From positions 1-40,949 of the forward strand of contig CAKZMC010000191.1 of the NCBI GenBank assembly GCA_937128055.1: DNA of 40,949 nucleotides, read 5' to 3'. Each line of letters begins with the position of its first letter. The stretch's first letter is position 1. The position numbers and the translations under genes were made by a program. Below are positions 30,620-40,949 of this stretch, one piece after another. Source of the stretch: an uncultured Actinomycetes bacterium. GTDB lineage: Bacteria; Actinomycetota; Geothermincolia; Geothermincolales; RBG-13-55-18. The notes beneath the pieces are model-generated. The model had not been told where the DNA came from. It saw only the letters and a program-made list of their open reading frames with translations, and searched no databases.

Positions 30620-32782
30620 TCAACTCTGGGACTGCGGCTTGAGGGATCTGCCCGGTCCCATGGGCAGGCGGAAGGAGAACTCGGTCCCCTCGCCCGGCCG
30701 GGTGTCCACCTCGATTTCCGTTTCCAGGAGATCGGCGATGAGGCGCACGATGTAGAGGCCCAGGCCGGTGCCCGTCTGGTGCTTGTCCAGATCCTCAAGG
30801 CGGTCAAAGGGGTTGAAGATGTTGCGCACCTGCGAGGCGTCCATGCCCATCCCGAAGTCGCGCACGGATATGCGCACTCGGCCCTCCTCCCTTTCCGCCT
30901 TCATGATCACCGGGCTTTGCGGGGGGCTGAAGCGGATGGCGTTGTCCACTATGTTCTTGAGCAGCATCATGAGGTAGGAGCGGTCCGACGCCACGCTTAT
31001 CTCCCCTCCCTCGATCTCACTGGCGAGGCGCCTGCTCTCCTCCCCGCCGAGGTTGGCCTGCAGGCTGTCGAAGATCTCCCGCACGGGTATGACCTGCATG
31101 CTCATTGCCGCTTCCTTTCTCTGGAAACGCGAGATGGTGATGAACTGGTTGAGGAGGGAGGTGAGACGCTGGCAGGCGTTGGTGATGTGCTGGATGCACT
31201 CCTCCCGCTGCCGCTCGCTGAAGTCCCTGCAATGGTCACGAAGGAGGAGGGCGTACCCGTTGAGGATGGTGATGGGGGTGCGGAACTCGTGGGAGGTGAC
31301 GTTGATGATATCCGTCTTGAACTGGTCCAGCTCCTCCACCTTCTTCTGGAACTTGCGGGCCTCTTCCAGCTGTGCCGTGAGGTAGGCGGAGAGGAGGTAG
31401 TTCTCGATGAAAATGCCCAGACGGTCGCTGAGCTGGCGCAGGAACGCGAGGTCCACGGGGTCCAGCGAGGCCGGCCTCGCCTTGTTCCCCACCAGCAGCG
31501 TACCCACCTCTCCCAGGGTGCCCCTGATGGGGAGGCATGCCACCAGCCCCTTTTCGCGCATCTCGTGGCGCAGGTGCGCGTCCGCGTCGGGCTGTTCCTC
31601 GTCGAAGGCGATGTCCTCCAGCACCAGCGGGCGCTGCCGCAGGCGGTGGAGAGGGGAGCCGGAGTAATCTATCTCCCGGAAGTCCACGTAACCGTCGCCT
31701 TCCCTGCGCGCCCCCATCGACCAGTCGCCCTTGCCGGAGAATATCTCCCGGGGGATGATAACGGCGAGCTTCTCCAGGCGGAGTTGCCGGCAGACCAGGG
31801 CCGCCACCCCCGAGGCCCCTTCCCTGATGTCGGGGTTGCGGGTCAGCACGCCTGACACCTCGTGCAGTAGCCCCACCTCGTCGTACAGGCTCGCGAAGAG
31901 GAAGCGGGAAGCCAAGCGGTTGCAGAGTTCGCGCAGGGCGGGGGCGAAGGCCACTATCAGGGCCAGGGCGATCATGAAGATGGCCCGTTCCAGCGCTGGG
32001 TCAAGGGTCCAGAAGAGGTGCAGGGACAGGTAGAGGAGGAGAAGCGGTATTCCGAAAAGCACCAGGGCGAGCAGGTAGGCGAGGCCGCGGCGCATGGCGA
32101 TGCGCACGTCCAGCAGCCGGTAGCGCATGATGGCGTAAGCGGTGAAGGCGGCGGGGATGATCACCGCCAGGAAGGTGTAGTCCGAGGTGACGTCGCGGTT
32201 CAACATGCCCGGGATGGCGATGGTCAGCAGGAAGGCCAGGACGAAGAAGATGCCGAAACCGATGAGGATGTAGAGCGCCCGCGAGCGGTCGATGCTGCGC
32301 GAGCGGCGCCTTTTCAGCGATATGCAGAAGAAACCAGCCCCGCCCAGCAGCAGGAAGTAGAGCGTGAACAGGGCGTAGAAGGGGCCATTGGTGACCAAGT
32401 AGGACCCTTCCCTGTACTCGGCCTGCCTGATGATCATATCCGTAAAGCATATGAAGGCCAGGAGCGAGGCTGCGGAATACACCAGGCGGGTCAGCCAGGG
32501 AGATGGCTTGGTTCCCCGCATGAAAACAAGGCCGAAGAAAAAGAAGGTGGGAACGGCGAACGTGGCTATGGCGTATGATAAGCGGTATTGCATGGTGACG
32601 AAGAACGTGGAGGGCTGTGAGATCAGGCGGTCCACAAAACCCGAGAGCAGCCACAGGGAGACCAGGGCGAGGAAGAGGGAGAAATAGCGATTGAGGCTCG
32701 CCTTCCGCTTTGCTGCCAGCACGGCTACGGCCATACTCGTCAAGAAGGCGGCTTCCAGCGCGGTGATCACGAACCTAAACAT
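30620..32782 (-). CDS. Sensor histidine kinase with 7TM sensor, GAF-like and HisKA/HATPase domains (orphan)
   Basis: Seven hydrophobic segments; FKTDIINVTSHEFRTPITILNGYALLL H-box; DNAIRFSPPQ, DFGMGMD, GTGLGLYIVRLIADLL. Confidence 0.95.
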   Translation of the reverse strand: MFRFVITALEAAFLTSMAVAVLAAKRKASLNRYFSLFLALVSLWLLSGFVDRLISQPSTFFVTMQYRLSYAIATFAVPTFFFFGLVFMRGTKPSPWLTRLVYSAASLLAFICFTDMIIRQAEYREGSYLVTNGPFYALFTLYFLLLGGAGFFCISLKRRRSRSIDRSRALYILIGFGIFFVLAFLLTIAIPGMLNRDVTSDYTFLAVIIPAAFTAYAIMRYRLLDVRIAMRRGLAYLLALVLFGIPLLLLYLSLHLFWTLDPALERAIFMIALALIVAFAPALRELCNRLASRFLFASLYDEVGLLHEVSGVLTRNPDIREGASGVAALVCRQLRLEKLAVIIPREIFSGKGDWSMGARREGDGYVDFREIDYSGSPLHRLRQRPLVLEDIAFDEEQPDADAHLRHEMREKGLVACLPIRGTLGEVGTLLVGNKARPASLDPVDLAFLRQLSDRLGIFIENYLLSAYLTAQLEEARKFQKKVEELDQFKTDIINVTSHEFRTPITILNGYALLLRDHCRDFSERQREECIQHITNACQRLTSLLNQFITISRFQRKEAAMSMQVIPVREIFDSLQANLGGEESRRLASEIEGGEISVASDRSYLMMLLKNIVDNAIRFSPPQSPVIMKAEREEGRVRISVRDFGMGMDASQVRNIFNPFDRLEDLDKHQTGTGLGLYIVRLIADLLETEIEVDTRPGEGTEFSFRLPMGPGRSLKPQSQS

Positions 32783-33400
32783 GATTCCTCACCCGCTATC
32801 ACCTGAGGGCGTCCGGTTGCTTATTTCATCTCCCGCCCCGCGCGGGCGCCGTCGCGACCCTTCCGCCCGCCATACAGCCTGCCGCATCTCGTAAGCGAGG
32901 GAAACGCCTGCCTTCTCGGCTGTGCCGCGCCGGCCTTGCCGGCTCCTTTACTCATCCGGGAGGCGGCGCTACCGCGGGTGCCTACGTCCCGGCTTCCCCT
33001 TGCGCGCCACCCGTTTCTTGGGCCGGTGTCCTCATGCACCGTGGCAGCAGGCATTAATAATCAATATTTTATCGGCTTTTCCCGGCGATTGGTAAAGGCC
33101 ACTACGGGAGCGTTGCGAACCGGTGCACCACCTGCCTTGCGATGCGCGTGCGGCTTGCGGGCGGCGTTTTCGCGGCGGAGGGGCCGTCCCGTCGGGGCTA
33201 CTCGCCTCCAGGGCGGGACTATATAAGGGACCGGCACAGCGGGGAGGGGATGCGGTCCGCCGCCGTGCGCGCCGCGGAGTTGCTCCCGTCCGGATTGCCC
33301 CCGGGGGCGAGTTTGGGCGGTCCAGGGAAAAAGCGGGCAAAATACGGTGAAAAACCCCGAGGAACGGCAACAATATGACAAAAGTGCCATATATCTTGCT

Positions 33401-33429
33401 TGACAGTGCAAGCTCAATCAAATAGACTT
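33401..33429 (+). promoter_or_regulatory. Candidate sigma-70 promoter with overlapping small palindrome
   Basis: TTGACA (33401-33406), 17-bp spacer, TAGACT; overlapped by GCTTG-ACAGTG-CAAGC. Confidence 0.45.
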
Positions 33430-33587
33430 GTTTGGCGGTGGCGGTTGAGTAGCGGATGGGTGCGACGTATTTTTCAGTATCAAGAATTTATTGTATTCGA
33501 GGACGCTTGCGATAGCTTTGCGTTTGCGGCTCGGACCGGTTCCGTTCATTGTTCGGGTAAAGGTGGGGTTAACTACTTCGGGAGGTA

Positions 33588-34883
33588 ATGCACATGTACG
33601 AGGAACTAAACACCGCCATGTCCAGGGACGAAAGCATCTCCATGCTCAAGAAGGAAGTCCACGAGCTGGCCGTCAAGGACTTGAGGCCCATCTCGCTTCA
33701 GCTGGACAAGATGCATCCCCAGGAAGTCTGCGAGAAGGGGTCGCCCTATTACGAGGCGCACAAGAAGATAAAACAGATGGGGCTGCACAGGATGTACACG
33801 AGGAAGGAGTACGGCGGCCTGGAATCGACTCCCGAGGAGATACATGTCGTGCTGGAGGAGGTGTCCTGGGCGAGCATGGGTTTCGGGGGCGGCCTGGGCG
33901 TGGACATGTGCTGCATGGCCATCATCACGCTGACCAACGACATCCTGGGAGGCTCCGTCTCCGAGATGGTGGACGACATCGTCACGCCCTGGCTCGAGGA
34001 CGATGAGGGGAAATATCACGGGTGCATACCGTGGGTGGAGCCCGAGCACGGATCCGACATCATAGGCGCCTGCCATCTGCCCGACGAGCTCATCGTGGGA
34101 TATGGGCTGCGGGCTCCGGTGAGGATGGACGAGGAGGGGGACTTCTGGGTCCTCAACGGCATGAAGGCCCCGTGGACGACTTCGGGTCCGACGGCCACGC
34201 ACGGCGCGGTAATCGTCAACGCGCCTCCCCACGAGAGCATAGCGGACGCCACGCTGGCCTTCGTGCCCTTCGAGCTGGAGGGGGTGCGCAAGGGGCCAGC
34301 CCTGGAGAAGTTGGGCATGCGGGACGAGCCGCAGGGCGAGATAATCTTCGACAACGTCAAGGTCCCCAAGGAGTACGTCATCGTCATCCCCGGGCTCTGG
34401 AAATCCCTGGGGGGCACCATTCTCGCCCTGCTGAACGCGGGGATGGGCGCCCTGTACACCGGCCTGGGGAGAGCGGCCTTCGAGGAGGCCTTGAAGTACG
34501 CCAAGGAGAGGGTGCAGGGAGGCAGGCCCCTCATCGAGCACGACACCATGAAGATGCGTCTGGCGGAGATGTTCATGAAGGTGGAGGCGTGCAGGAGCTA
34601 TTCCAGGGCCGCCGTGAGCTATTCCCACGAGAAGGTCTTCAAGGAGACCGAGATGGATTTCCCCCACGGCATCTGCTTCGCCTGCAAGGCTTTCTGCACG
34701 CAGCAGGCCTTCGAGGTGGCCAGCGAGGCGGTCCAGATCCACGGAGGGTACGGGATAACCAAGGACAGCGTGGTCGAGAAGCTCTTCCGGGACGCGCGCA
34801 TGGGCCTGATCATGGACGGGTGCAACCGCGTGCTGACCCTCACGGCGGGCTGGAACCTGCAAGAGGCGTATTCGTTGGAATGA
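33588..34883 (+). CDS. Acyl-CoA dehydrogenase-family protein with Asp (DGCN) in the EGTN position
   Basis: GCIPWVEPEHGSDIIGA, WVLNGMKAPWTTSGPTA, VQIHGGYGITKDSVVEKLFRDARMGLIMDGCNRVLTLTAGW. Confidence 0.92.
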   Translation: MHMYEELNTAMSRDESISMLKKEVHELAVKDLRPISLQLDKMHPQEVCEKGSPYYEAHKKIKQMGLHRMYTRKEYGGLESTPEEIHVVLEEVSWASMGFGGGLGVDMCCMAIITLTNDILGGSVSEMVDDIVTPWLEDDEGKYHGCIPWVEPEHGSDIIGACHLPDELIVGYGLRAPVRMDEEGDFWVLNGMKAPWTTSGPTATHGAVIVNAPPHESIADATLAFVPFELEGVRKGPALEKLGMRDEPQGEIIFDNVKVPKEYVIVIPGLWKSLGGTILALLNAGMGALYTGLGRAAFEEALKYAKERVQGGRPLIEHDTMKMRLAEMFMKVEACRSYSRAAVSYSHEKVFKETEMDFPHGICFACKAFCTQQAFEVASEAVQIHGGYGITKDSVVEKLFRDARMGLIMDGCNRVLTLTAGWNLQEAYSLE

Positions 34884-34893
34884 GGTGGGGGAG

Positions 34894-36357
34894 ATGTCAG
34901 GAGGGATAGACAGGAAACAGCTGGTCGACATTGCGGGAAAAGACAACGTCTTCGACGACGAAGAGACCCTCGACGCCTACTCGCAAGACGAGAGCTTCCT
35001 CCCGCCGCGGCGCCCGAGTTTCGTCGTGAAGCCCAAGGGGCGGGACGAGATCGTCGCGTTGCTGAAAATCGCCAACGAGACCAAGACCCCCCTCGTCCCG
35101 GTCAGCTCGGGCCCACCGCACTTCCGGGGGGATACCGTCCCGGAATACGGAGGGATAGTGCTCGACCTCTCGGGGATGAGCAAGATCCTCTTCGTGGACA
35201 GGGAGGACCGGGTGGCGATGATCGAGCCGGGAGTGAGGTTCCGCGAGCTCCAGGCGGCGTTGCGCAAGGAGGGCATGAAGCTCCCCATACCGCTATGCCC
35301 GAGGGAGACGAAGTCGGTGGTGGGGAGCTGCCTGGAAAGGGAGCCGCACACCATCCCCAAGTACCACCTCGACCACTGCGACCCCCTGTCGTGCGCGGAG
35401 GTGGTCTTCGGGACGGGCGACGTTTTCTGCACCGGCGAGGCGGCGGGCCCGGGCACCATCGAAGACAAGCAGAAGGCGGGGTGGCGGCAGAAGATAAGGG
35501 TGGAGCCGCAGACGGAACTGATACGCCTCTTCCAGGGCTCGCAGGGCACCATGGGCATCGTTACCTGGGTGACCGTGAGGTGCGAGGTCATGCCCGGCAC
35601 CCAGAAGCCACTCCTGGCGGCGGGCGACGACCTGGAAGCCCTGCTCGAGTTCCTCTACCGGCTGGTGAGGATGAGGCTCTGCGACGAGGCCTTCATCCTT
35701 GACGGCGCCGACATGGCGGCCATCGCGGCGGAGGACGGTGACGTCGACGCCCTGCAGGACACCCTGCCGCGGTGGATCCTCTTCTTCTGCATAAGCGGCT
35801 ACCGCATACTTCCGGAGGAGAGGGTCTCCATACTGGAGAAGGAAACCAGGGAGATAGCCAAGCTGTGCAACGTCGGCCTGCAGGACGCCGTGGCGGGCCT
35901 TCCCGCGGAAAAGGTTCTGGACATCACCGGCCAGCCCTGCGCGGACACCTACTGGAAGTTGAGGAAGAGGGGCGCTTGCCAGGACATCTATTTTATAAGC
36001 TCCTTCGACGGCATCGCGAGATGCGTGGAGGTGATGCGGGAGTTCGCGGGCAGGAACGGCTTGCCCGTAAGGGACATCGGCGTCTACGTGCAACCGGTGT
36101 GCCAGGGACATGGGTATCACTGCGAGTTCAACATCTTCCACAAAGGGGAGGATCATGCGGAGAGGGAGAGGGTCAAGGACGCCTACGAATCGTTGTGCCG
36201 CGTGCTCTTGAACAACGGGGCCTTCTTCTCGCGCCCCTACGACCTGCTCCCGGAGATGGTCTACGAGAGGGACGCCGTGGCGGGTGGCGTCCTGCGCAAG
36301 GTGAAGAGCGTCTTCGACCCCAACAACATCCTCAACCCCGGTAAACTGTGTTTCTGA
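34894..36357 (+). CDS. FAD-binding oxidase (GlcD-like, PCMH-type)
   Basis: PSFVVKPKGRDEIVALLKIANETKTPLVPVSSG, GIVLDLSGMSKIL, IEPGVRFRELQAALRKEGM, GSQGTMGIVTWVTVRCE, C-terminal FDPNNILNPGKLCF. Confidence 0.9.
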   Translation: MSGGIDRKQLVDIAGKDNVFDDEETLDAYSQDESFLPPRRPSFVVKPKGRDEIVALLKIANETKTPLVPVSSGPPHFRGDTVPEYGGIVLDLSGMSKILFVDREDRVAMIEPGVRFRELQAALRKEGMKLPIPLCPRETKSVVGSCLEREPHTIPKYHLDHCDPLSCAEVVFGTGDVFCTGEAAGPGTIEDKQKAGWRQKIRVEPQTELIRLFQGSQGTMGIVTWVTVRCEVMPGTQKPLLAAGDDLEALLEFLYRLVRMRLCDEAFILDGADMAAIAAEDGDVDALQDTLPRWILFFCISGYRILPEERVSILEKETREIAKLCNVGLQDAVAGLPAEKVLDITGQPCADTYWKLRKRGACQDIYFISSFDGIARCVEVMREFAGRNGLPVRDIGVYVQPVCQGHGYHCEFNIFHKGEDHAERERVKDAYESLCRVLLNNGAFFSRPYDLLPEMVYERDAVAGGVLRKVKSVFDPNNILNPGKLCF

Positions 36358-36371
36358 AAGGAGAAGGCAAG

Positions 36372-37652
36372 ATGGCTTTGGAGGATTACGAATTCGGGGC
36401 CAGGTACTGCTCGCGGGATTCCATATGCAAGTTCATTCCCCAGTACGCGGTCAAGGACGCCCGCTTCGCGCAGTGCTGCCCCTCCATATCCAGGTATAAC
36501 GTCCACGCCTATTCCGGCGGGGGAAGGGTGATCATGGCGACCTCGCTCCTGCAGGGAAGGGGGGAGATCAGCGAGGAGGTCAAGGAGATCATATACAAGT
36601 GCCAGCTTTGCGGCGCCTGCCAGACCTCCTGCCACATCGTCACGGAGCTGGTGGAGCCTCTGGAGATAGCGCGCGAACTGAAGTTCCGCTGCGTGGAGGA
36701 GGGCAAGGAGAACCAGGCCCTGTCGAGCGTGAGGGAAAGGCTGGTCAAGACGAACAATATCTTCGGCAAGAAACAGGCCGACAGGGGGAAGTGGGCGGAG
36801 GGCCTGAAGGTCAAGGATGCGGGCGCGGAGGCGGCCGAGGTGCTCTTCTTTGCCGGGTGCCGGCTCTCCTACGACGATTCTTTCGCGCCGGTGGCCAGGA
36901 AATCCGTGGAGCTGATGAGCGGAGCGGGGATGGATGTGGGAATACTTGGAAAAGGAGAGACGTGCTGCGGCGGCCGCCTCTTCGACATGGGTTACAGGGA
37001 GGATTTCCGCAAGCTCGCAAGCACCATCGCGAAGAAGATCAAGGCTTGTGGCGCCAAGCGCTTGGTGACCGCCTGCGGGTGCTGCTACGGAACCTTTAAG
37101 CAGTTCTTCCCCATGATGGAGCTGGATCTCGAGGGCGTCGAGCTCCTGCACATATCGGAAGTCCTCGACGACCTCATGGGGGAAGGCAAGATCGAGCTCA
37201 AGAGGGAGATACCCCTGCGCGTCACCTATCACGACCCCTGCCACCTGGGGAGGCTGGGCGAACCCTATGAACGGTGGGAGGGGCAATACGTGAAGAAGCT
37301 GGGCCTGTGGGTGGCCGAGCCCGACAGGGAGGTGAGGAGGGGCCTGGGGGGAGTCTTCGACCCCCCGAGAAACGTCATCGCGGGCATCGAGGGCATAAAG
37401 CTCGTGGAGATGAAGAGGAAGCGCGAGTACGCCTGGTGCTGCGGGGCCGGAGGGGGCGTCCTGGAGGCGTACCCGGAGTTCGCGGCCTGGACGGCCGGGG
37501 AAAGGCTGCAGGAGGCGATGAGCGAAGGCTGCGAGGCGCTGGTGACGGCCTGTCCCTGGTGCGAGACGGCCTTCAGGATGGCAGTCAAGGAAAGCGGTGT
37601 AGGCGAGCTCAAGGTGATGGACCTGGTGGACCTGGTCGCCATGGCGACATGA
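36372..37652 (+). CDS. (Fe-S)-binding CCG-domain protein (GlcF/HdrD-like)
   Basis: CQLCGACQTSCHIV; two CCG-type modules (FFAGCRLSY...ETCCGG...ACGCCYGTF; YHDPCHLGR...WCCGAGGGV...ACPWCETAF). Confidence 0.92.
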   Translation: MALEDYEFGARYCSRDSICKFIPQYAVKDARFAQCCPSISRYNVHAYSGGGRVIMATSLLQGRGEISEEVKEIIYKCQLCGACQTSCHIVTELVEPLEIARELKFRCVEEGKENQALSSVRERLVKTNNIFGKKQADRGKWAEGLKVKDAGAEAAEVLFFAGCRLSYDDSFAPVARKSVELMSGAGMDVGILGKGETCCGGRLFDMGYREDFRKLASTIAKKIKACGAKRLVTACGCCYGTFKQFFPMMELDLEGVELLHISEVLDDLMGEGKIELKREIPLRVTYHDPCHLGRLGEPYERWEGQYVKKLGLWVAEPDREVRRGLGGVFDPPRNVIAGIEGIKLVEMKRKREYAWCCGAGGGVLEAYPEFAAWTAGERLQEAMSEGCEALVTACPWCETAFRMAVKESGVGELKVMDLVDLVAMAT

Positions 37653-37704
37653 GCGCCGCCCGCGGACGCTTGGTTCTTTCACGACCGGATGGAGGAGGTG
37701 CGCG

Positions 37705-39378
37705 ATGGCACTCGAGGAGAGCTCCCAGGCATATAGGCAGCTGAGGGAGATAGTGGGCGAAGAGAACATCACCACGGATCCCGTGGTCATGGACACGTAC
37801 GTATGGCAGTGGCTGGGGGACCTGGTCGGCGAGAAGGGCAACTGCTTCATGCCCTTGAGGCCGGAGGCCGTCGTCCTTCCCGGCAGCACCAGGGAAGTGC
37901 AGCGGGTGGTGAAGGTCTGCAACCGCTTCGGGCTCAAGTTCAAGGCGCATTCCACGGGCTGGATCTCCTACGCCGCCCCCTTGACGGAAGGCGTCGTCAT
38001 CCTGGATCTGCGCAGGATGGACAGGATCTTGGAGATCAACACCAAGGACATGTACGCGCTGATCGAGCCCTACGTGACCTTCTCCCAGTTGCAGGCCGAG
38101 TTGATGAAGGTCGGCTTGAACTGCGAGGTGAACGCGGCGGGCAGCAATTGCTCGGCGCTGGCACAGGCCGCGGCCGGTTTCGGCGCCGGTTACGGCAACT
38201 ACCACATGGGGTATGGCGCGGGTACCCTGCTGGGCGTGGAATGGGTGCTGCCCGACGGGGAGGTCCTGAAGATGGGTTCTCTGGGTTCCGGCTGCGGGTG
38301 GATAACCAGCGACGGCCCCGGCCCCAGCCTCAAGGGCATCATGAGGGGGCACATGGGGACGCTCGGTGGATGCGGCGTCTTCACCAAGTGCGCCCTCAGG
38401 GTTTACCACTGGCCGGGGCCCACGGAGATCGTGTGCGAGAACGAGGCGATGCCGGGTTATGAGAGGTTCGTGAACCTCCCGGACAACATCGCCATGTATT
38501 ACCTCTACTTCGACGATTACGAGAAGAGGAGCGAGGCCATCTGCAAGGTGGGGGAGGAGGACATAGGTTACGTAATGGGCTTCATGCAGAGGGGGCTGGC
38601 GATCCTCGGCCTCGCCGACACCAACGCCCACTTCGTGGACCTCAAGGAAGACCTCTTCGACGCCTTGCCGTCCATCTCGTTCGTGGTCCTTTTGGCCACC
38701 CATTCCCGGGAGGAGCTGGAGCACCAGAAAAGGGTGCTGGAGAAGATACTGGAGGAAACCGGCGGCGGGTACATCGAATTGCTGCAGCAGGAGCCCTTCA
38801 ACGACGTCATAACCCTGCACCTCATCAAGGTCGGCACCCTTTCCGCGCACGCCGTCTGCGGCAGGTCGGGGGCTTTCCTGTGCGCGCCGGGCTCGAACGC
38901 CGTCACCAGGCGCATTGCAGGCAGGCTGGAGAGCCTGTCCATCGAGCTGAAGAAAAAGTACATAGAGGAGGGCAAGCTGGTGGACGACGGCGGAGAGGGC
39001 ACCTGGGGCGTGGTATGGGACCACGGGCATACCATCTACATAGAGAACCTGGTGGAGTGGGATCCCGCAGACCCCGAGTCGAGCATGGCCCACGTGAGGC
39101 TGCAGGAAGAGGTGAACAAGGAGACCATAGAAAAACTGAGCTACCTCTCCTCCATGGGGACTTTCGTGGAGGAGAGCGCGAAGATGAACCCGGAGGACAT
39201 GGTCAAGCTCAAGGACATGACGCCGTCGGACCTCATCGAGAAGAGCGAGGAGATGGCCGCGGCGCATTCTCCCTACGACGCGAAGTTGGGGCCGCTGCTG
39301 CGCAATTACCATGTCTGGTTGCGGAGGATAAGGGAGCAGCTGGATCCGAACAACTCCTCGGACGCCAGCCCCCCCTAA
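37705..39378 (+). CDS. Second FAD-binding oxidoreductase (VAO/GlcD superfamily)
   Basis: FMPLRPEAVVLPGSTREVQRVVKVCNRFGLKFKAHSTG, VVILDLRRMDRIL, LIEPYVTFSQLQAELM, GWITSDGPGPSLKGIMRGHMGTLGGCGVFTKCALRVY. Confidence 0.9.
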   Translation: MALEESSQAYRQLREIVGEENITTDPVVMDTYVWQWLGDLVGEKGNCFMPLRPEAVVLPGSTREVQRVVKVCNRFGLKFKAHSTGWISYAAPLTEGVVILDLRRMDRILEINTKDMYALIEPYVTFSQLQAELMKVGLNCEVNAAGSNCSALAQAAAGFGAGYGNYHMGYGAGTLLGVEWVLPDGEVLKMGSLGSGCGWITSDGPGPSLKGIMRGHMGTLGGCGVFTKCALRVYHWPGPTEIVCENEAMPGYERFVNLPDNIAMYYLYFDDYEKRSEAICKVGEEDIGYVMGFMQRGLAILGLADTNAHFVDLKEDLFDALPSISFVVLLATHSREELEHQKRVLEKILEETGGGYIELLQQEPFNDVITLHLIKVGTLSAHAVCGRSGAFLCAPGSNAVTRRIAGRLESLSIELKKKYIEEGKLVDDGGEGTWGVVWDHGHTIYIENLVEWDPADPESSMAHVRLQEEVNKETIEKLSYLSSMGTFVEESAKMNPEDMVKLKDMTPSDLIEKSEEMAAAHSPYDAKLGPLLRNYHVWLRRIREQLDPNNSSDASPP

Positions 39379-39496
39379 GAAGCGCGCGGCGGGAGGCCCG
39401 CGCGGGGAGGCGCGGTCCTTTCGCCGCGGGAAAGCGGGCTGGGAGGCGGAGAGCCGCCGCGTGTGGCTGTGGCGTGGTCGAAAAGGAGGTAAGGTT

Positions 39497-40060
39497 ATGG
39501 CATTGACGTACGGGACCAAGGAATGGGACGAGGCTTACGAGGCGAAGCTCAGGGAAAGGCTGGAAAATGTTCCCAAGCCTTTCGTGGTCGGGACGCCGGA
39601 GTGGGTCCACGAGCTCAAAGAGGTGGTGAACAAGGACGACACCTACAAGAACGCGGCGAAGGGATGGGAGTACACCATAACCCTCGATGTGGGGGCGAAG
39701 CCGGAGTACGGCATCGACGAAAACGTGTGCATCTTTCTCGATATCTGGCACGGGGAGTGCAGGTCGGCGAGGATCCTCCCCAAGGAGGAGGCGGAAAAGG
39801 CGGACTACGTATTCAGCGGCACGTACGAGACATGGAAGAGCGTGGCAAAGCTGGAGAAAGATACCATGAAGCTGGTGGTGCAGGGGGAGATCAAGCTCAA
39901 GGGCGACCTCGCCAGGATGATGAAGTACGTCAAGGCGGCCAAGAGGCTGGCCGAGCTTTCGGGAGTCGTCGAGGGAGTATGGGCCGACGAGCTTCCTCCC
40001 GCCGAGCTGGAGAAGTTCAAGTCGGATATAAGAGAGCTGCGGGCCGAGTTCGGGGTATAG
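39497..40060 (+). CDS. SCP2-like sterol/lipid-transfer domain protein
   Basis: ITLDVGAKPEYGIDENVCIFLDIWHGECRSARILPKEEAEKADYVFSGTYETWKSVAKLEKDTMKLVVQGEIKLKGDLARMMKYVKAAKRLAEL; RBS AAAAGGAGGTAAGG. Confidence 0.82.
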   Translation: MALTYGTKEWDEAYEAKLRERLENVPKPFVVGTPEWVHELKEVVNKDDTYKNAAKGWEYTITLDVGAKPEYGIDENVCIFLDIWHGECRSARILPKEEAEKADYVFSGTYETWKSVAKLEKDTMKLVVQGEIKLKGDLARMMKYVKAAKRLAELSGVVEGVWADELPPAELEKFKSDIRELRAEFGV

Positions 40061-40177
40061 CGGGAGCGGCTCGCCAGCCCGCCCCAAGGTGATCGCGCCG
40101 GCCACGGTGCCGGGGCGTCGGGCCATGCGTGCGAACGGGCCGTTTCGCGTAGATCCGCTCTAAGGCAGGTGGTGAAA

Positions 40178-40442
40178 ATGCGGGTTTGGGCACAGTGCCC
40201 CATCAGCTTCCCGGAAGAGATGAGGGATGCCGCGGGGCCCATCAGGGAGGCGTACAGCAGCACGGCGATGCGGGCATGCAGGCCCGACACGGAGGTCGCG
40301 GTCAAGTTCCCCGAGGAGGGGCTCAGGGACACCGACATCTTCTTCTGGAAATACCCCTACTTCCTGCATTATGCCCCCATAATGGAGGGGCTCTTGCAGA
40401 GCGAGAGGGAAGGATACGACGCCGCGGCGATCCTCTGCTTCC
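40178..40442 (+). CDS. N-terminal part of an Asp/Glu/hydantoin racemase-like protein, interrupted by a probable chimeric junction
   Basis: MRVWAQCPISFPEEMRDAAGPIREAYSSTAMRACRPDTEVAVKF...PIMEGLLQSEREGYDAAAILCF, after which family character stops. Confidence 0.5.
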
Positions 40443-40469
40443 TGGTCCAGCTCGGCCCTTGGGGCGAGA

Positions 40470-40620
40470 CGCTGGAGGAAGCGCTCGCCTCGCGGCTGGA
40501 GGCGGGCGGGGCGTTTGGGCTGGCCCTCATTGACCTCGACGGCTTTAAGGGGGTCAACGACTGCGAGGGGCACGCCCAGGGTGACCAGGTGCTGCGGGTC
40601 TTTGCGGCGGCCCTGCGCGG
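40470..40620 (+). other. GGDEF-domain fragment fused in frame, probable foreign/chimeric segment
   Basis: ETLEEALASRLEAGGAFGLALIDLDGFKGVNDCEGHAQGDQVLRVFAAALRG matches the start of a GGDEF domain, but no GG(D/E)EF follows. Confidence 0.6.
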
Positions 40621-40629
40621 CGAAGGCGG

Positions 40630-40949
40630 CCTGCAGCGTGCGGCCCCAGGCCGGGGCGTCGAGCAGGTAGCAGTGCCGCTCGCCGAAAGTGTTGTTGACC
40701 TCCGCCACGATCGCCCGCAGCGAGCCGTCGGGCCGGTGGCAGTACCAGAAGCTCACGGGCTTGAAGGCGTAGCCCAGCGTCCGCGCGTAGGTGTGCAGCC
40801 AGACCGCGCCGTCCGCGTCCGCGATGCCATGCCGCGTCAGCAGCTCCCGCAGCCAGGCCAGCGCACCGCCGGCCTCGGGGCCACGCCCGTCGCCGTGGTC
40901 GCGGTCATGGAAACTGATCGGCGCCACTCGGTTGAGGGGCAGCCCGGCA
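40630..40949 (-). CDS. DUF1365-family protein fragment, truncated at both ends, probable foreign/chimeric segment
   Basis: Reverse strand: LNRVAPISFHDRDHGDG...WLRELLTRHGIADADGAVWLHTYARTLGYAFKPVSFWYCHRPDGSLRAIVAEVNNTFGERHCYLLDAPAWGRTLQA. Confidence 0.75.

Follow-up and report, generated by a model that had tools for sequence, protein, structure and literature searches.

The central three genes of a five-gene locus in the window (the whole stretch of actinobacterial DNA analysed here, 40,949 nucleotides in length) form a conserved ancient unit, which the five genes together do not. These three genes, hereafter the trio, encode a flavoprotein (GlcD1), a CCG iron–sulfur protein and a second flavoprotein (GlcD2), and are flanked in the window by a gene for an acyl-CoA dehydrogenase (ACAD) and a gene for an SCP2-like protein. 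Our survey provides a first answer to the question of how widely such flavoproteins are spread, with which the paper on the benzene-degrading strain BzS1 ends (PMC13416013): trios of this architecture are present across many bacterial and several archaeal phyla. In several phyla the genes for EtfAB, in some cases together with FixC and FixX, lie beside or inside the trio, so that the acceptor of the electrons can be put to a direct test for enzymes of this type. We give about even chances to the trio being a two-flavin/Fe–S dehydrogenase linked to an electron-transfer flavoprotein (ETF), with the ACAD and the SCP2-like protein acting on the same pathway.

The five-gene locus

The window corresponds to the entire contig C191 of the source assembly (G000; 2.70 Mb, 99% complete), and the visible sequence ends at position 40949. 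The locus comprises five plus-strand open reading frames (33588–40060), separated by spacers of 1 bp (ACAD–GlcD1) up to about 120 bp. It is preceded by an intergenic region of 805 bp (32783–33587), upstream of which a histidine kinase is encoded on the opposite strand (30620–32782). The description given by the sequence-only reading, of five co-oriented and closely spaced genes behind a long non-coding region, is accordingly borne out. The features are as follows.

33400–33428, plus strand: candidate sigma-70-type promoter, TTGACA-N17-TAGACT (consensus scan only)
33588–34883, plus strand: ACAD, 431 residues; three ACAD domains, one close orthologue (53%)
34885–36357, plus strand: GlcD1, predicted VAO/PCMH-fold flavoprotein with FAD_binding_4 and FAD-oxidase_C domains (Pfam, structure model)
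36372–37652, plus strand: CCG (HdrB/GlcF-like) iron–sulfur protein; two CCG stretches, matches to HdrB structures
37705–39378, plus strand: GlcD2, second predicted VAO/PCMH-fold flavoprotein, FAD_binding_4 only (Pfam, structure model; GlcD1 paralogue)
39497–40060, plus strand: SCP2-like lipid-binding protein, 187 residues (PF02036; Thermus SCP2 structure 2cx7; orthologue in G014)

The Pfam matches were to PF00441 in the ACAD (3.6e-27), PF01565 (9.1e-20) and PF02913 (1.4e-6) in GlcD1, PF02754 in two stretches of the CCG protein (5.4e-24), PF01565 and no other domain in GlcD2 (9.4e-22), and PF02036 in the SCP2-like protein (5.5e-12). Full-length matches in other genomes indicate that GlcD1, CCG and GlcD2 are real genes. 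Purine-rich ribosome-binding sites precede the ACAD, CCG, GlcD2 and SCP2 genes. Translation of the ACAD probably starts at the ATG at 33594 rather than at 33588, since the former lies about eight bases after a GGAGG motif and the G014 orthologue likewise begins with M-Y-G-E; the SCP2-like protein starts at the ATG at 39497. A consensus scan gave three sigma-70-like sites, where chance alone would give 1.6 in the region covered. A single good promoter-like site lies in the 805 bp gap, at 33400–33428, and is weak on its own.

Downstream of the SCP2 gene, an open reading frame with an unmatched start (40169–40949) reads through, without a change of frame, to a partial GGDEF match (residues 100–150), while a partial DUF1365 protein on the opposite strand reaches the contig end at 40949. 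This overlap could be an assembly chimera.

Conservation of the trio and its link to ETF in relatives

The survey comprised 80 named loci with a GlcD1 alignment, 58 of which had room for the whole trio (at least 3.3 kb after GlcD1), and the complete trio, in order and on one strand, was present in 57 of these 58. The bacterial loci belong to the Actinomycetota, Chloroflexota, Acidobacteriota, Thermodesulfobacteriota, Myxococcota, Pseudomonadota, Bacillota, Zixibacteria and Abyssobacteria and the archaeal loci to the Hadesarchaea, Jordarchaeia and Freyarchaeota; most are from MAGs, and single cases may be binning errors. Sampling of 398 genomes from the phylum of Desulfopila detected GlcD1 at E < 1e-60 in 55, and in the 40 loci examined from this sample the trio was present where the contig allows. 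The cultured Desulfopila aestuarii DSM 18488 (L098) also carries a trio. Variation in the order is rare: GlcD2 comes first in L073, and L144 and L212 also deviate. Plasmid records contained only distant GlcD2 matches, the best being about 29% identical. To the question of whether the gene order recurs in distant genomes, the answer is affirmative for the trio and negative for the five genes.

In 14 of the 80 loci, EtfA and/or EtfB is encoded on the strand of the trio and no more than 2.6 kb away from it, the remaining 66 having no ETF gene within this distance and many of the contigs being short; FixC accompanies the trio in five loci. The density of ETF genes is higher in the neighbourhood of the trio, with 23 in 316 kb near it versus four in 497 kb further away. 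Two loci (L107 and L118) display the order GlcD1–EtfB–EtfA–CCG–GlcD2–FixC–FixX, EtfAB lies inside the trio operon in the actinomycetotal relatives L065, L067 and L074, and GlcD2 is followed by FixC in L068. A tree of GlcD1 places the window and G014 together with L077, L078 and L079 (support 98/91). These three loci are the nearest relatives outside the phylum of the window, and EtfAB adjoins the trio in all of them; the pairing of EtfAB genes with those of the enzyme, as would be expected of an ETF-linked dehydrogenase, is seen in these and other relatives and not in the window itself.

No ETF genes were found in the window, nor around the G014 copy within the limits of the contigs that carry it. 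The earlier remark that etfAB is missing here holds for the window, and one EtfA was found elsewhere in the source genome, at the start of contig C201, where it is followed by genes for an HdrA-like protein, two Fe–S proteins and an NAD-binding Fe–S reductase. Given that EtfAB recurs at trio loci and the ACAD is nearly always absent from them, ETF rather than the ACAD appears to be the protein with which the trio would naturally exchange electrons.

We infer that the three proteins form a heterotrimeric oxidoreductase in which the CCG subunit joins two FAD subunits and which, in this organism too, works in the direction of substrate oxidation with ETF as acceptor. One of the flavins would take a hydride from a C–H bond of the substrate, an organic compound, and the electrons would pass through the CCG subunit and exit via ETF, as the presence in relatives of EtfAB in the operon, sometimes with FixC (ETF:quinone-oxidoreductase-like) and FixX, suggests. 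The ACAD would dehydrogenate a CoA ester in the pathway to which the trio belongs, drawing on a shared ETF pool, and the SCP2-like protein would hold a hydrophobic substrate or its CoA ester.

Several further observations concern the neighbourhood and copy number of these genes. A protein of about 150 residues recurs beside the flavoprotein genes (L067:4776–5231, L065:10728–11159 and L075:10191–10655); in L065 and L067 it is located between EtfB and GlcD1, and Pfam gave no match for the copy in L067. The source genome contains a second, distant trio (L057:6023–10496, on contig C160; 24–35% identical), downstream of which two HGD-D proteins are encoded, one of the two having been scanned with Pfam. 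GlcD2-type flavoproteins are strongly expanded in actinomycetotal relatives (G004–G029; L066, L071, L072 and L075), some of the genes having neither GlcD1 nor CCG nearby. Matches per genome in family and class relatives reach 23 for GlcD2 and 26 for CCG, counts that also take in distant paralogues as well as split matches, and do not give the number of trios. On the Desulfobacterota side (L223, L224, L226 and L232), the trio is adjoined by genes for an Fe–S protein, an AOR-like protein and a second CCG protein.

Comparison with phenol-, glycolate- and lactate-oxidizing enzymes

The predicted model of GlcD1 (pLDDT 88.6) has vanillyl-alcohol dehydrogenase and p-cresol methylhydroxylase as its closest fold neighbours, with a TM-score of up to 0.84 to the latter. 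That of GlcD2 (pLDDT 80.8) matches D-lactate dehydrogenases best and then these two phenol enzymes, at lower TM-scores; the LctD subunit of the Ldh–EtfAB complex appears further down the list of fold matches. Both proteins are predicted VAO/PCMH-fold flavoproteins, and they are paralogous to each other. They share this fold with the p-cresol methylhydroxylase/vanillyl-alcohol oxidase family, from which the window system differs in sequence (about 20% identity) and in the addition of a CCG protein and a second flavoprotein. The CCG protein matches HdrB and other CCG reductases among solved structures, and in the window copy an Asp replaces one Cys of the first motif (alignment A3).

An unlikely alternative, and the one that survives best, is that the trio is a 2-hydroxyacid dehydrogenase of the glycolate or lactate type, similar to GlcDEF or LctD, with the ACAD and the SCP2-like protein as pathway neighbours. 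The GlcD2 fold matches point in this direction, as does composition: GlcDEF also consists of two flavoproteins and a CCG protein (PMC13101534; PMC13416013), and the E. coli enzyme, with two FAD subunits and one CCG Fe–S subunit, differs from the window trio in gene order. On the other hand, the NCBIfam equivalog cut-offs were all missed widely (81.9 against 567.9 bits for GlcD and 25.5 against 333 bits for GlcF), and membership of the GlcDEF glycolate dehydrogenases was rejected on these scores. Moreover, GlcD1 is closer in both fold and profile to the phenol-oxidizing VAO/PCMH enzymes than to lactate dehydrogenase.

LctBCD is a single-flavoprotein dehydrogenase without a CCG subunit. As the Ldh–EtfAB complex of Acetobacterium woodii (7qh2), it represents a solved case of ETF linkage which resembles the trio relatives in that a VAO-fold FAD dehydrogenase is encoded with EtfAB, and differs from the window, which has no ETF genes. 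The supposition that the GlcD/CCG unit is unlike any characterized lactate or glycolate cluster is upheld by the missed cut-offs. The trio does match a gene set described in 2026, in the two papers discussed below.

The ACAD, the SCP2-like protein and benzene-type systems

The ACAD contains the N-terminal, middle and C-terminal domains and an acidic residue at the catalytic position, with Asp410 in place of the expected Glu. That this substitution makes it a dead enzyme was rejected as unproven, the residue still being acidic and a Glu in the G014 orthologue. One close orthologue (53%) was detected among 60 relatives, in G014, another member of the family of the window, where it lies ahead of a trio corresponding to that of the window; on a different G014 contig (L062), the end of a GlcD2 gene is followed by that of an SCP2 orthologue (47%). 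The five-gene order in G014 would therefore run across two contig ends. The five proteins of the window and G014 are 47–73% identical and keep the same neighbours in different genera, and a search of one further genome from the genus of the window, G001, gave no GlcD2 hit. An ancient five-gene operon was rejected, G014 being the only other case and nearly all of the trio loci surveyed having no ACAD; the proposal that the five genes constitute one conserved unit is likewise not supported.

The sequence-only reading had also suggested a dedicated oxidation unit of five proteins, in which electrons from the ACAD would go to the GlcD/CCG pair and not to ETF. The ACAD gene is indeed 1 bp from the trio here and adjacent to it in G014, and a Dehalococcoidia contig (L101) carries a distant ACAD (26%) among a trio, EtfB and a second GlcD/CCG pair, so that an ACAD may have been recruited to the trio more than once. 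The scarcity of the ACAD at trio loci, together with the recurrence there of EtfAB, and in some of FixC, and the presence of an EtfA in the genome itself, do not bear this suggestion out and make it decidedly unlikely.

The closest described counterpart of the trio is a putative benzene-activating heterotrimer reported in 2026. It is represented by the 'Magic' proteins 24–26 of Ca. Anaerobenzenivorax ORM2a (PMC13101534) and by BzS1_12970/80/90 ('BeDH') of strain BzS1 (PMC13416013); the known proteins are 63–89% identical to one another and are likened by the authors to GlcDEF and PCMH (PMC13101534; PMC13416013). The window trio shares with these systems, as there described, three adjacent genes with the same division of domains (FAD plus FAD-oxidase_C, an Fe–S protein with two Cys-rich domains, and FAD only) and the resemblance to VAO/PCMH enzymes and GlcDEF; the likeness is one of architecture and not of a tree. 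The flanks differ: the ORM2a trio is accompanied by an AMP ligase, a MaoC protein and two type III CoA transferases (PMC13101534); the window has the ACAD upstream, the SCP2-like protein downstream and none of these. Function is putative in both. By its architecture, the trio appears to be the same kind of machine as the benzene heterotrimer, and it is not filed here as a benzene enzyme. Neither paper settles the electron acceptor; ETF was only suggested as such from co-abundance in the BzS1 paper (PMC13416013), and some of the ETF synteny may already be known to the ORM2a and BzS1 authors.

It is very unlikely that the trio activates a hydrocarbon C–H bond in the manner proposed for the benzene heterotrimer, with the SCP2-like protein and the ACAD serving a hydrophobic substrate. 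The shared gene order and domain split, the SCP2 gene in the operon and 12 HGD-D proteins over the cut-off in G000, from a family that includes benzoyl-CoA reductase subunits, are consistent with such a role; the HGD-D proteins may instead be 2-hydroxyacyl-CoA dehydratases. Besides the absence of the benzene flanking genes from the window, neither MaoC nor a credible CoA-transferase turned up when the surroundings of the fetched trios, including the loci from the phylum of Desulfopila, were scanned for motifs, and the sampling of that phylum (398 genomes, 40 loci examined) gave no recognizable benzene-type cluster. Furthermore, NaphS2 and Ds. variabilis, neither of which uses benzene, have more distant homologues in the same synteny (PMC13101534; PMC13416013). 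The trio alone is no marker of benzene degradation. A more specific version, in which an actinobacterial benzene-type C–H-activating heterotrimer would pass its electrons on to ETF and would belong, along with the ACAD and the SCP2-like protein, to a hitherto undescribed anaerobic pathway for a hydrocarbon or alicyclic compound that is insoluble in water, is similarly a long shot.

That the ACAD and SCP2 genes landed beside the trio as unrelated neighbours devoid of joint function would agree with the occurrence of their arrangement in just one other genome examined, and is made highly improbable by its retention between genera at the identities given above. The best reading of the two proteins, within an ETF-linked dehydrogenase pathway, is that they are partners particular to this lineage and act on a CoA-linked compound that is probably hydrophobic, a substrate side that is guessed from the SCP2-like protein and the ACAD alone.

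The HGD-D genes of G000 (2-hydroxyacyl-CoA dehydratase/benzoyl-CoA reductase family) lie on several contigs, and a number of them are in pairs and near ACAD genes, on C58 and C110.
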